Part shown: positions 14,315 to 19,892 of the stretch, piece by piece
How positions within the stretch are numbered: the first letter of the stretch is position 1
Layout of the letters: the number at the start of each line of letters is the position of its first letter
DNA from: Thioalkalivibrio sp. ALJ3
Lineage (GTDB): Bacteria > Pseudomonadota > Gammaproteobacteria > Ectothiorhodospirales > Ectothiorhodospiraceae
DNA length: 64,000 nt
Assembly: GCF_000377205.1 (NCBI RefSeq)
Contig: NZ_KB897907.1
Coordinates: forward strand, 62,001-126,000
Direction: 5' to 3'
Notes under the pieces: model-generated
What the model saw: the letters and a program-made list of their open reading frames with translations, nothing else
Told to the model about the DNA's origin: nothing
The model's database searches: none
Made by a program: the position numbers and the translations under genes

Positions 14315-14815
14315 TTAGTCGATCCGGATGGTGGTGTATCCCTGCTGCTCGTAGCCCATGATGGAGAGGAAGGTATTCCCCACCAGGTTAATGCCCGGAA
14401 TCAGGTCTTCCTGCCCGAGATCGAAGCGGCGGGTGGCGATGTGGCAGGCCTCCATGTGGACGCCATCGAGTTCCTGGATGTCGGCCAGACGGTCATGGAT
14501 GTGGCGCACGGCCGAGACGTCCTCGATCTCGAGGTGCTCGGTATCGCGCGCGATCAGCGCGGCGGCACCACCGCGAAACGCGAACACCATGTTCGGCTCC
14601 AGGCCTTGGCGCACCATGTCCTCGTAGGTCTCTTCGATGACGCTCAGCCGGGCAATCAGGCGTTCAGGGTCGCCGATGGTGATGTCCCAGAGGATCTGGC
14701 CGTGTTCCAGCCCCGCAATTGCGCGCTCGTCGGAAGGCTTTTCCGCCGCCGCTGGGCTGGTGAGCAGAAAAGCCAGCAGGACAGTGCCGAGAATGCCGAT
14801 CAGCCGATACTTCAT
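14315..14815 (-). CDS. Exported DsrE-like family protein
   Basis: This 166-residue protein has a signal peptide (MKYRLIGILGTV, cleavage near AAA-E at residue 25). The mature part has the DsrE/DsrF-like fold pattern, including a stretch around FRGGAAALIARDTE. Cytoplasmic DsrE proteins relay sulfur, but the exported branch often lacks the conserved cysteine. Here the only mature cysteine is in EACHIATRR near residue 123, which aligns roughly with the usual active-site position. AAGGGG precedes the ATG. Sulfur handling in the periplasm is a fair guess for a sulfur oxidiser but is not proven. Confidence 0.7.
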   Translation of the reverse strand: MKYRLIGILGTVLLAFLLTSPAAAEKPSDERAIAGLEHGQILWDITIGDPERLIARLSVIEETYEDMVRQGLEPNMVFAFRGGAAALIARDTEHLEIEDVSAVRHIHDRLADIQELDGVHMEACHIATRRFDLGQEDLIPGINLVGNTFLSIMGYEQQGYTTIRID

Positions 14816-15244: not shown

Positions 15245-16654
15245 TTAACTGGGTGAAGTCTTCTTGACGGCCTCGAAGGCCTCCAATGCGGCCTGGCGGC
15301 TGGCTTTCAGGTCGACGATCGGGTCGGGATAGTCCTGGGTGCCGCCGGCGCCCGGGGCGTGAATATACCGTGTTTTGGTCTTCTTGAGCACCGGCAGGAA
15401 GCGTCGCACGAATCGGCCGTCCGGGTCGTATTGTTCCCCCTGGCGTTGCGGGTTGAAGATCCGGAAATAGGGTGCGGCATCGGCGCCGCAACCACCGGCC
15501 CATTGCCAGCCCAAGGTGTTGGAGGCGAGATCGGCGTCGACCAGGGTGTCCCAGAACCAGCGGGCACCATGCCCCCAATGCAGGCGCAGGTTCTTGGTCA
15601 GGAAGGATCCGACGACCATGCGCAGCCGGTTGTGCATCCAGCCGGTTTCCCACAGCTGGCGCATCGCCGCGTCCACGATCGGGATACCGGTGCGGCCTTG
15701 CTGCCAAGCGGCGAGATCGGCCTCCGATTCGCGCCAGGGGAAATCCTCGAAGCGCGGGTTCAGGGGCTGCTCCGGCGTGTGTGGAAAGTGATAGAGCACA
15801 TGGTGTGCAAAGTCGCGCCAGCCAAGCTCGCGCACGAAGGACTCGGGTCCTTTCTGCTCCGGGCTGATGCCGGCATCGCGCAGCGCGCGCAGCACCTGGC
15901 GCGGCGAGACCTCGCCAAAATGCAGATGGGGTGACAGCCCGGAGGTGCCGTCCTGGTCCGGACGGTCCCGGCTGTCGGAGTAACCTGTGATCGTCCGTCC
16001 GAGGAACCGCTCCAGGCGGTCCCGGGCGCCACGCTCGCCGGGCGTCCAGGTGGCGTGCAGGCCGCCGGCCCAGTCGATTTGTGGCAGCAGTGCCAGGTCG
16101 TCGAGCGTCAGGGATGCTGGTGGTTTCGCGGGCCCCGGCAGGCGGGAGGGGGCGGGGAGCGGGTCCTCTTCAATGCCGCGCTGCAGGCAGGCGCGCCAGA
16201 ACGGAGTGAACACCCTGTACGGGCTACCCTGTCCGGTCTCGACGTCCCAGGGCTCGATCAGCAAGGCCGCGTTGAAGCTGCGAACCTCCAGGCCATCGGC
16301 GCGCAGCCCGGCCTTGACGCCCTGATCGCGCAGGACGCGGGCCGGTTCGTAGACACGGTTCCAGTACACGGCCTCGGCCCCGGTCTCGGCGACCAGCTCG
16401 CGCAGGGTGTCGAGGCTCGAACCCCCGCGAATGATCAGAGGGCTGCCGGCCCCTTCAAGTGCCTCATTCAGCTTTTCCAGGCTGTGGTGCAGCCACCAGT
16501 TGGACGCGGCTCCGGGTGCCCACTGCAGGTCTTCGTCCGGGGCATGGATGAAGACCGGGACCACGGCTCCGCCACGTTCGAAGGCGGCGTGCAGTGCGGG
16601 CTGGTCGGCCAAGCGCAGGTCTTGCCGCAGCCAGACGAGAGTGGGGCCGGGCAT
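15245..16654 (-). CDS. phrB: Deoxyribodipyrimidine photolyase (class I, CPD)
   Basis: This 469-residue flavoprotein repairs cyclobutane pyrimidine dimers using blue light. The N-terminal photolyase domain begins PTLVWLRQDLRLADQPAL. The C-terminal FAD domain shows GRTGIPIVDAAMRQLWETG, WMHNRLRMVVGSFLTKN and the NTLGWQWAGGCGADAAPYFR stretch that carries the electron-transfer tryptophan and flavin contacts. Length matches E. coli PhrB. It lies 73 bp downstream of a MerR-type regulator on the same strand, the arrangement seen for light-controlled photolyase operons of the LitR/CarH type. Confidence 0.95.
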   Translation of the reverse strand: MPGPTLVWLRQDLRLADQPALHAAFERGGAVVPVFIHAPDEDLQWAPGAASNWWLHHSLEKLNEALEGAGSPLIIRGGSSLDTLRELVAETGAEAVYWNRVYEPARVLRDQGVKAGLRADGLEVRSFNAALLIEPWDVETGQGSPYRVFTPFWRACLQRGIEEDPLPAPSRLPGPAKPPASLTLDDLALLPQIDWAGGLHATWTPGERGARDRLERFLGRTITGYSDSRDRPDQDGTSGLSPHLHFGEVSPRQVLRALRDAGISPEQKGPESFVRELGWRDFAHHVLYHFPHTPEQPLNPRFEDFPWRESEADLAAWQQGRTGIPIVDAAMRQLWETGWMHNRLRMVVGSFLTKNLRLHWGHGARWFWDTLVDADLASNTLGWQWAGGCGADAAPYFRIFNPQRQGEQYDPDGRFVRRFLPVLKKTKTRYIHAPGAGGTQDYPDPIVDLKASRQAALEAFEAVKKTSPS

Positions 16655-16727: not shown

Positions 16728-17711
16728 TCAGAGGAGGAGTTGCCGGCTGAGTCGTTCGGCGGCTTCGAGGGGTGCGCCGGGCAGCACTTCGATCTCGCGC
16801 CGATGTTCTGCCTGCGAGAGTTCCAGAGCGGCCGAGCCTGCCAGATAGCAGCGCGGTCCGGGGTGATCAAGGATGGCCTCGACCCGTGGAAGCTCGGGGG
16901 AACGCATCAGCTGCGAGGAACCGTGGATGATGACGGCAGGAGCGGACAGGCGTTGCACTAGGGTGTCCAGGGCCTCGGGGCTGGTGGCGTCGAACAGCGG
17001 TAGCGTTTTCAGACCGCGCCGGGCGCAGGCTAGTTGCAGGAGCATGCCGCCCACCTGCTGATGCCCGCCACCGAGCACCAGACAGGGAATCGCGGGTTCT
17101 TCGCAGGCGCGGATTGCGGCACGCAACTGATCGGAGAAAGCCGCGGTAGCCCAGGCGGCAAATACCGCCAGGCGTACTTCCCCTTCAGGCGTGTGTCGCG
17201 ATTCCCCCCGCAGGCGCCGGTAGACCTCGAGAAAGGCGCTTTCATGCACCCCGTCCCAGCCGTGGCGCATGACCAGCCGTGCGTAGGTGCGTTCCAGTTG
17301 CCCGGCATCCAGGTCCACGACAGAGGCATACAGTGCCTCGGCCAGTGGGTCGAGGGTATGCGGGGCTACGCCCGGTTCGCTGGAGCCGGCGCGGTTGCGG
17401 CGTGCGGGCGTGGTGGAGTCGGGCTGCGAAGAAGAGGGCAGAGCGGTAACGGCGTTTTCACTGGCGAGAACCCGATGGACCTGAGAAACCGGAATGCCCT
17501 GACCGAGCAGCTCCAGGATGCGCCTGATGCGAGCAATGTCGTCCGCGCTGTACAGTCGGTGTCCCTTGGGGGTGCGCATCGGGCGGATCAGCCCGTAGCG
17601 GCGTTCCCAGGCGCGCAGGGTTACGTCGTTGATCCCGGTCTCCGCGCACACGTGGCGGATGGGGTAGAGACCTTCTTGATCATGGGTGCTCAGTTGAGTC
17701 GCGCTGGCCAT
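16728..17711 (-). CDS. MerR-family regulator, CarH/LitR-like with degenerate B12 domain
   Basis: This protein of about 327 residues has an N-terminal MerR helix-turn-helix (YPIRHVCAETGINDVTLRAW, then ERRYGLIRP and TPKGHRLYS). A linker is followed by a C-terminal region laid out like the B12-binding half of CarH/LitR light regulators. The Rossmann-like part keeps a histidine in GGGHQQVGG, where CarH has E-x-H-x-x-G, but the acidic residue is lost and no clear W-x9-EH motif is seen. An upstream ATG at 17729 falls between operator repeats, so ATG 17711 is preferred. It sits directly before phrB. CarH-type proteins repress in the dark as AdoCbl-bound tetramers; whether this one binds B12 is open. 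Confidence 0.82.
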   Translation of the reverse strand: MASATQLSTHDQEGLYPIRHVCAETGINDVTLRAWERRYGLIRPMRTPKGHRLYSADDIARIRRILELLGQGIPVSQVHRVLASENAVTALPSSSQPDSTTPARRNRAGSSEPGVAPHTLDPLAEALYASVVDLDAGQLERTYARLVMRHGWDGVHESAFLEVYRRLRGESRHTPEGEVRLAVFAAWATAAFSDQLRAAIRACEEPAIPCLVLGGGHQQVGGMLLQLACARRGLKTLPLFDATSPEALDTLVQRLSAPAVIIHGSSQLMRSPELPRVEAILDHPGPRCYLAGSAALELSQAEHRREIEVLPGAPLEAAERLSRQLLL

Positions 17712-17719
17712 GGTCAGAT

Positions 17720-17746
17720 TGTACAGCATCTGTACGGATCATGTAC
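17720..17746 (-). promoter_or_regulatory. Three 11-bp-phased direct repeats (CarH/LitR-type operator)
   Basis: The pentamer TGTAC occurs at 17720, 17731 and 17742, exactly 11 bp apart, just upstream of the likely merR start. On the coding (minus) strand these are three GTACA direct repeats. Known CarH tetramers bind consecutive 11-bp repeats with TACA at their core. The location suggests autoregulation of the merR-phrB operon. Confidence 0.65.
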
Positions 17747-17984: not shown

Positions 17985-19892
17985 ATGTCGCAGGGCGGGA
18001 ACAACATGCGATATCCGTTCATTCGGAGCGGTTCCGTGCTGGCCACACTGTCGGCCCTGTGCCTGGCCGTAGCCGTACCGGTGCAGGCCAACCCCGAGAT
18101 GGCGGACAGCATTTCTCCGTATCTACGCCTGCATGTCGACGATCCGGTGAAGTGGCGCGCCTGGGATCCAGCCTTGCTGGACAAGGCGCGCGAGGAACAG
18201 CGCCCGCTGCTGATCTCCAGCGGGTACTACTCCTGCTACTACTGCCATGTCATGCAGGACGAGAGCTTCAAGGACGAAGGGATTGCCGAGCGTCTGAACG
18301 AGCATTTCATTCCGGTCAAGGTCGACCGCGAGGTGAATGGGGCGCTAGACACCTATCTGCTCGAGTTCCAGCGCGCGACGGCGGGTAGCGCGGGATGGCC
18401 GCTGAACGTCGTGGTGACCCCTGACGGTCATGCGCTTACCGGTGTGGTGTACGCCCCGCGTGACGATTTTGCGGAGTTTCTGGACGGCATCACCGAACGC
18501 CTGGAGGCGGATTACGATGCGTTGGTCGACCTTGCCCGCCGCGGCAGTGATGAGCTCTCCGAGCGACTGCGCAAGGGTGAAGAGCCCCTGTCCGACAGCC
18601 GGGCGGCGCGTCTGCCGCAGGTCCTGTGGACCGCCATGGAACGTGAAGCGGATGACCTCCAGGGTGGGTTTGGCAGCTCAACCAAGTTTCCGCATTCGCC
18701 CTGGTTGCGCGCATTGCTGGAGGCCGAATACATTGGCGAGGCGCCGGGCTGGGTCCCCGAGTTCCTCGATATCACGCTGGAAGAGATGGGTGGCTCGGGA
18801 CTGCGCGATGTGCTGGGCGGCGGCTTCTTTCGGTATTCCGATACGCCCGACTGGGGCGAGCCGCATTTCGAGGTCATGCTGGAGGATCAGGCACAGCTGG
18901 CCTGGGTATACCTGAAGGCGGGTGAGCGCTTCGACCGCCAGGACTGGATCGAACTGGGTCTGGAAAACCTGGACTTCGTCAAACGCGACATGGCGCTGCG
19001 TGAGGATGATCTTGGGGACCAGGCGGAGCCCGGTCCGGACGGCTTTCGTGGCTTTGCCGCGAGTCTCTCGGCAGTGGACGATCAAGGCCGCGAAGGCGGA
19101 GCCTATCTGTGGCCGGAAGAAGATCTGGAGTCCGCGTTGGCGGACCACGAGAATCCCGAACTAGTGCGTGCCTACTTCGGGATGGAAGGTGCCACGGTGT
19201 TCGATCTGGGCTACCTCCCGCGGAGCGGTGAAACGGTCGCGCAACTGGCCGAACGCTTCGAACTCGACGAGGAGGCGGTACAGGAGAAGGTCTACAGTGG
19301 CCGCGAAGCCCTGATCGTGGCCCGAGAAGAGCGCGGTCTGCCGCGCGACGAAAAGGTCCTGACCGGGGCCCATGGACTTCTGCTGTCCGCGCTGGCGCTG
19401 GCGGCTGACCACGACGAGCGCTTCGAGAAGGCCGGAGAGGCCGTGCGCTCGTGGTTGCTGGAGGTGGCCGGGTCACCCGATGAACTGCCGACCCTGATGG
19501 GCTTGCCGAGCGAAGACGCGGGCGAGGCAACGCTGAACGATTACGCCTATGTTGCCCAAGGGTTGCGTGACTGGGATTCCGCGCGCGACAGTGGTGATCG
19601 CGGTGCCGCAATTGCCCTGCTGGAGACGGCCTGGGAGCGCTTCCTTGACGACGACGGTTTTCGGTCCGAGCCGGAACCCCCGTTGCCGGGGATGATCTCG
19701 CAACGCTTCCATCCGGCGGTGCATCGGCCGTCACCCACCACGCTCATCCTGCGGATGACCGAAGAGTGGCTGGAGGAGAGCGAGACGCTCAAGACTGCCT
19801 TCGAGGAGTATGACCTGCGCCCGGGGCGCGGAGTCGAGGGACAGCCGAAGCATCACGCGCGGCTCATCCTCTGGTTCCAGGAACGCGACTGA
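17985..19892 (+). CDS. Exported thioredoxin-fold/DUF255 (YyaL-like) protein
   Basis: This 635-residue protein has an N-terminal signal peptide (after MSQGGNN, MRYPFIRSGSVLATLS through PVQA-N near residue 36). A thioredoxin-like DUF255 domain shows SGYYSCYYCHVMQDESF at about residue 80. The rest is a six-hairpin glycosidase-like helical domain. Most family members read CHWCHVM; here the pair is CYYC. GGAGGCG lies 5-6 nt before ATG 17985, although ATG 18006 also gives a good signal peptide. The role of the family is uncertain. Export suggests a periplasmic redox or cell-envelope function rather than the cytosolic one of YyaL. Confidence 0.78.
   Translation: MSQGGNNMRYPFIRSGSVLATLSALCLAVAVPVQANPEMADSISPYLRLHVDDPVKWRAWDPALLDKAREEQRPLLISSGYYSCYYCHVMQDESFKDEGIAERLNEHFIPVKVDREVNGALDTYLLEFQRATAGSAGWPLNVVVTPDGHALTGVVYAPRDDFAEFLDGITERLEADYDALVDLARRGSDELSERLRKGEEPLSDSRAARLPQVLWTAMEREADDLQGGFGSSTKFPHSPWLRALLEAEYIGEAPGWVPEFLDITLEEMGGSGLRDVLGGGFFRYSDTPDWGEPHFEVMLEDQAQLAWVYLKAGERFDRQDWIELGLENLDFVKRDMALREDDLGDQAEPGPDGFRGFAASLSAVDDQGREGGAYLWPEEDLESALADHENPELVRAYFGMEGATVFDLGYLPRSGETVAQLAERFELDEEAVQEKVYSGREALIVAREERGLPRDEKVLTGAHGLLLSALALAADHDERFEKAGEAVRSWLLEVAGSPDELPTLMGLPSEDAGEATLNDYAYVAQGLRDWDSARDSGDRGAAIALLETAWERFLDDDGFRSEPEPPLPGMISQRFHPAVHRPSPTTLILRMTEEWLEESETLKTAFEEYDLRPGRGVEGQPKHHARLILWFQERD

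Follow-up and report, generated by a model that had tools for sequence, protein, structure and literature searches.

A LitR-type regulator gene lacking B12 motifs, its CarH-type operator and a probable short LOV switch in Thioalkalivibrio sp. ALJ3

The window analysed here, the whole 64-kb stretch (64,000 nucleotides) of Thioalkalivibrio sp. ALJ3 DNA, contains a MerR-type regulator gene, litR, which is followed on the same strand, after 73 bases, by the photolyase gene phrB (Table 1). A preliminary description of this DNA had proposed a merR-phrB arrangement, which is confirmed by the photolyase domains of the downstream product. The small ORF that comes after phrB has no Pfam or NCBIfam match at E ≤ 1, and further 3' on the same strand an ORF at 14315-14815 has weak DsrE-like matches. 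On the other side of the operator, at a distance of 239 bases, a thioredoxin-domain (DUF255) gene (window 17985-19892) is divergent from litR.

Table 1. Features of the litR-phrB locus and the short LOV gene (window positions unless a contig is given)
Feature	Position	Strand	Description
Small ORF, 87 aa	14957..15220	-	After phrB, possibly in the litR-phrB unit; ORF only
phrB, DNA photolyase	15245..16654	-	FAD_binding_7 2.6e-82, DNA_photolyase 1.8e-51; probable second gene of the litR unit
litR	16728..17711	-	327 aa; MerR HTH, then a remnant cobalamin-binding region of CarH type that lacks B12 motifs
-10-like box TACAAT	17718..17723	-	Overlaps the last repeat, 6 nt before ATG; candidate leaderless promoter
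Operator	17720..17746	-	Three GTACA units in 11-bp phase, directly 5' of litR
Short LOV, 147 aa	G000:C2:185218-185658		YRDCRFLQ motif; own genome, unlinked to litR

Across the family (Ectothiorhodospiraceae), a phrB match is present in 23 of 37 litR loci, on the opposite strand in three of these 23; 12 of the 37 loci, searched with a 1.5-kb flank, have none and another two are too short to tell. Within the genus, litR is not always paired with phrB, since 12 congeners (L033-L035, L037-L044 and L046) are without phrB within 1.5 kb 3' of litR.

LitR has a MerR helix-turn-helix (HTH) at its N-terminus (Pfam MerR_1, 1.4e-16), in which RAWERRYG contains the RxWERRY sequence characteristic of class I CarH/LitR proteins. 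Pfam finds no B12 domain in LitR at E ≤ 1, and the four-helix B12-binding_2 domain (PF02607), a class II feature, is likewise not recognised, no B12-named Pfam match being obtained at this threshold. The NCBIfam CarH model aligns to residues 18-302, scoring 89 bits where the cut-off is 400. Profile alignment with the 27 B12-type LitRs of the class sample described below spans 301 columns with a probability of 100 and brings G-H-Q-Q-V-G of LitR into register with E-x-H-x-x-G, the same register as in the sequence alignment. Of this motif only the glycine is kept; in both alignments the LitR histidine pairs with the x of E-x-H and the cobalt-His position is occupied by glutamine, and one congener (L047) has a glutamine where the window LitR has its histidine. 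The statement in the preliminary description that the motif histidine is retained has to be withdrawn, as this residue is one position out of register. The loss of key B12 residues that it described is real and greater than claimed: a motif scan agrees with it that W-x9-EH is absent, and the class I D/E-x-H-x-x-G with its cobalt histidine is gone as well. LitR matches in this respect the class II description of a LitR homologue without B12-binding residues.

The quality of an AlphaFold model of LitR, built from four sequences, is good for the HTH and fair for the helical stretch but drops to poor past about residue 200, and because of this low confidence the pocket is not read from it. Structural comparison of the model covers mainly residues 18-98 and 125-205; the latter resemble the CarH helical domain with a Z of about 12, at which level (under ~13) helical bundles may share a common arrangement only. 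In a BLASTP comparison with a Pseudomonas LitR, the match covers little past the N-terminal half.

A start of litR at 17729, as in the listed ORF, was rejected, an in-frame TAA being located between there and 17711 in 5 of 38 family matches. Together with the near-constant distance from the repeats to the ATG at 37 promoters, this makes 17711 the most likely start on sequence grounds, and the operator therefore lies upstream of the gene and not within it. At all 37 promoters, the distance from the end of the last repeat to the ATG is 8 nt (27 loci) or 9 nt (10 loci), and the -10-like box, which reads exactly TACAAT in 32 of the 37, ends 6 or 7 nt 5' of the ATG. Candidate transcription from this box would therefore have its 5' end at or near the A of the ATG, and the spacing suggests that litR is probably leaderless.

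The operator consists of TGTAC units at 17721, 17732 and 17743 of the plus strand, which read GTACA-N6-GTACA-N6-GTACA on the strand of the gene, and a single one of these repeats has a T just before GTACA. The exact triple is a single copy in the 2.63-Mb genome. With up to two mismatches, there are two matches in the 64-kb window against 0.01 expected, namely the litR-operator site and its own opposite-strand shadow, and none of 100 shuffled windows reaches two matches. At up to three mismatches the genome contains 17 triples versus 19 for reversed controls, so these weak triples are attributed to chance. The array has the tandem 11-bp direct-repeat form at the promoter that characterises class I, the published consensus of CarH operators being nnnnTnnACAn (available text of PMC9304148).

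All 37 litR promoters examined in the family (37 of 38 family LitRs, with L058 of G038 excluded, being cut by a contig edge) have the 11-bp array, as three clean repeats or as two and a degenerate one, the latter in many of them. The repeats are kept while LitR identity drops to ~50% within the genus and ~30-40% in other genera. The three units, their CarH-type character and their exact phase, all put forward in the preliminary description, are thus borne out and extend to relatives; its placing of the repeats at the merR start holds for the 11-bp phase and not for the start itself, since 17711 is favoured over 17729.

The genome also encodes a short LOV protein, as in class II systems. Its nearest structures in the PDB are 7r5n and 3sw1, named 'Sensory box protein', of which we take 3sw1 to be PpSB1-LOV of P. 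putida. The closest proteins among named genomes are those of Thioalkalivibrio strains, followed by Ectothiorhodospira. On contig C1, a two-mismatch match to the LOV motif (L007) was discarded on visual inspection, the ORF resembling an outer-membrane protein. The LOV gene is directly preceded by a Tll0287-like gene (PF11845; L010:565-1173, on G000:C2). Upstream of this Tll0287-like/LOV operon, an 11-bp triple is present in 25 of 27 testable congeners (shuffle p ≤ 0.025) and absent in the other two (G013 and G014); three of the 30 LOV loci (L065, L079 and L085) were excluded from this count as not testable. The own-genome site scores 11 of 15 (p 0.010) and is weaker than the litR site. In L065 (G016), an N5 pair is located ~2.1 kb 5' of the LOV gene.

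LOV at 65% identity or more is present in 36 of 47 family genomes, comprising 30 of 30 congeners, 3 of 10 in g2 (Ectothiorhodospira) and 3 of 5 in g4. LitR is present in 38 of the 47, including 27 of 30 congeners, the three without it being at most 77% complete. Among the 36 LOV carriers, 33 have LitR and the remaining three are, again, at most 77% complete. In g4, LitR is found in all three genomes with LOV and in neither of the two without; in g2 it is found in all three with LOV and also in five of seven without. In five g2 genomes (L093, L095, L096, L097 and L100) a B12-free LitR and the litR operator are present, but no close short LOV. LitR was also found in all ten genomes reached through LOV loci, a set that was chosen for LOV.

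A wider, evenly drawn class sample of 369 genomes (cut-offs E ≤ 1e-42 for LOV and E ≤ 1e-15 for LitR) contains LOV in 13 and LitR in 78; all 13 LOV genomes have LitR, and in 6 of them the coordinates place the two genes no more than about 1 kb apart. The B12 motifs were scanned in 90 LitR loci, and exclusion of those with E > about 1e-36 and of the short L252 left 56 of the 78 genomes, with G019 entered by hand as motif-free; none of the 22 excluded genomes is among the 13 LOV carriers, and B12 motifs are present in several of the LitR-like proteins they encode. A first regular expression for the B12 motif caught EEHFFG of the W-x9-EH region, and the counts given here take the motif from the C-terminal 40% of the protein. 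LOV occurs in 0 of 31 genomes whose strong LitR has the B12 motif or W-x9-EH, versus 13 of the 25 that have neither of them (Fisher test without regard to kinship, 2.8e-6); when both motifs are demanded, the figures are 0 of 24 versus 13 of 32. A kinship-aware test of LOV against B12-motif loss has two contrasts only. The other 12 of the 25 genomes with a B12-free LitR are without LOV.

Searching the 47 family genomes with the pattern KTAYA-N6-GTACA-N6-RTAYA gave 49 matches (three places being counted on both strands) versus one for the reversed control. Of 30 matched loci inspected, 20 (probably 23) lie before an FAD oxidoreductase gene, four before litR, two before a PAS chemoreceptor/lipoprotein-like gene pair and one before the LOV operon. 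In the own genome, DUF1365 and a cyclopropane-synthase-type methyltransferase come after the FAD oxidoreductase, forming a cluster that may be a furan-fatty-acid operon (pathway in the available text of PMC7380195) and is here called ufa-like. Divergent from it are genes for glutathione peroxidase (gpx), DUF3429 and GTP cyclohydrolase I (folE), and 11-bp arrays precede this ufa-like/gpx-DUF3429-folE divergent pair. The ufa-like operator is located 31-40 nt 5' of the start in 16 of 20 loci, those in which an ATG at that distance opens the ORF. Light induces such kinds of genes in Pseudomonas, according to the accessible portion of PMC9758184.

The reading we favour is that the locus probably encodes a CarH/LitR-superfamily repressor that acts in the dark, no longer perceives light through B12 and is switched by the short LOV in blue light. 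By homology with P. mendocina, where a B12-free LitR is removed from DNA by an illuminated short LOV (PMC9758184, available text), LitR would bind DNA and repress in the dark, sitting on the GTACA direct repeats that coincide with the litR-phrB promoter and on those before several distant photoprotective operons. In blue light, the short LOV would form a flavin-cysteine adduct, and the lit protein would bind LitR and take it off the DNA. Release would permit expression of the photolyase, the ufa-like operon, folE, glutathione peroxidase and the LOV operon itself. The preliminary description had allowed for light sensing without B12, through another ligand or through a second protein, and the second-protein option is supported by the presence of the short LOV gene, its co-occurrence with LitR and the similar operator before its operon; the light control itself would follow from the homology. 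Counting against the LOV-switched repressor are the five g2 genomes and the 12 of 25 class-sample genomes with a B12-free LitR and no LOV, the lack of a LOV-operon array in G013 and G014, the own LOV site's score of just 11 of 15, the short reach of the BLASTP match to a Pseudomonas LitR, the two contrasts to which the kinship-aware test is limited and the constitutive expression of the LOV gene in P. mendocina (PMC9758184, in the text available).

The same LOV-free genomes, both in g2 and in the class sample, lend themselves to another explanation, in which LitR, a repressor that does without B12, sits on 11-bp repeats and is released by some other protein anti-repressor, LOV being uninvolved or having an indirect role. 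CarA, as far as the available text of PMC9304148 describes it, is such a B12-independent member acting on a CarH operator with a protein antagonist, CarS. We regard this as unlikely for the present locus, given the co-occurrence with LOV (30 of 30 in the genus, 13 of 13 in the class sample), the adjacency of LitR in 6 of 13 and the operator at the LOV operon. Glutathione peroxidase and the Tll0287-like gene among the predicted targets would suit a repressor responsive to redox state or stress and not to light, yet the predicted targets also include a photolyase and a LOV photoreceptor, which leaves such a function very improbable.

Light could also be perceived by LitR itself. A novel chromophore carried by the protein has a precedent in the class III LitR of Burkholderia, for which one has been suggested (PMC9758184, in its available text), but no chromophore motif was recognised in LitR and a ready photoreceptor exists in the genome, and we consider this still less probable than the redox function. 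Sensing through AdoCbl bound in a rearranged pocket, as in class I CarH, would draw on the resemblance of residues 125-205 to the CarH cobalamin-binding domain, at a Z (about 12) that falls under the ~13 below which only a common arrangement may be shared, and on the retained motif glycine. Against this, other residues stand in place of the cobalt histidine and the acidic residue, W-x9-EH is missing and the remnant of the cobalamin region diverges strongly among relatives, making it the least probable of the explanations considered.

Compared with known systems, the LOV-switched repressor proposed here shares with CarH of Thermus and Bacillus (class I) the MerR HTH, the layout and the promoter-overlapping tandem 11-bp direct repeats (PMC9304148, available text), and differs in having neither W-x9-EH nor E-x-H-x-x-G and in the short LOV of its genome. 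B12 independence and the kind of operator, which in that case is cleared by a protein, are shared with CarA of Myxococcus xanthus (same source, as available), whereas CarA keeps a B12-binding motif and is lifted by CarS, the candidate here being a LOV photoreceptor. PmlR2/PmSB-LOV of P. mendocina and PplR/PpSB-LOV of P. putida resemble it most in combining a B12-free MerR-type LitR with a close short LOV, in TGTACA-type half sites and in targets of the same kinds, namely photolyase, folE, FAD oxidoreductase and a ufa-type methyltransferase (PMC9758184, available text). Unlike in these Pseudomonas class II systems as that text presents them, the sites are spaced by N5 (11-bp phase) in place of N12, LOV is unlinked to litR, litR is probably leaderless and the place in the quick tree is separate; an array lies 5' of the LOV operon, whereas the pmSB-LOV gene of P. 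mendocina is constitutive.

In a quick, unrooted tree of 81 LitRs, with long branches that include the Thioalkalivibrio stem, the family clusters by itself, separately from Pseudomonas (SH-aLRT 84 for the family group), and all 28 rows labelled as B12-type by the first regular expression fall within one group of 34 (SH-aLRT 98). The class II operator T(G/A)TACA-N12-TGTA(C/T)A was not found at the family litR promoters, where the arrays are N5. The locus would work like a class II LitR with a short LOV, and is not filed as a class II member because the N12 operator is lacking and the tree position is tentative.

A search of titles and abstracts, with most subscription journals outside its coverage, showed among the records listed no report of a LitR/short-LOV system outside Pseudomonas. 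Relative to the Pseudomonas switch, as set out in the available text of PMC9758184, what differs here is the CarH-type 11-bp operator, the LOV operon under it and the probably leaderless litR. The LitR/short-LOV switch would not be confined to Pseudomonas: it would also operate in sulfur-oxidising and purple sulfur bacteria, for which targets are predicted here, and LOV-controlled repressors acting on short repeats are possible optogenetic parts. A CarH operator layout occurring naturally with a repressor devoid of the B12 sensor makes layout and sensor type separable by experiment. Tentatively, and with less confidence than the switch itself, Ectothiorhodospiraceae may hold a separate B12-free LitR line, which combines a CarH-type operator with a LOV anti-repressor, in which lit LOV would de-repress its own operon and the leaderless litR-phrB, and of which the regulon in some congeners would reach a PAS chemoreceptor. 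Such a reach, if true, would couple movement to DNA repair and to protection of the membrane.

Six congeners (L181, L182, L183, L184, L185 and L161) have an 11-bp array between the PAS/MCP chemoreceptor and lipoprotein-like genes; the chemoreceptor of G016 has PAS and MCP signalling domains, and the lipoprotein-like gene beside it has no Pfam match.

As regards spacing more widely, N5 is the commonest (32) and N12 is absent among the 61 TGTACA-type pairs in the Thioalkalivibrio matches listed. In P. fuscovaginae, N12 is the commonest spacing (5 of 10 pairs in the genome) and two TGTACA-N12-TGTACA sites lie in the promoter before a RudS-type gene; N12-spaced TGTACA-type sites are published for PplR1 and PmlR2 (PMC9758184, available text). 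Other LOV-carrying lineages have other spacings, for example N7 before the Arhodomonas litR. A TGTACA-N5-TGTACA pair at G000:C1:409777-409793 (L186) is located in the gap before a gene that resembles priA by eye, and the same string or its complement is present also in G016, G023 and G024.
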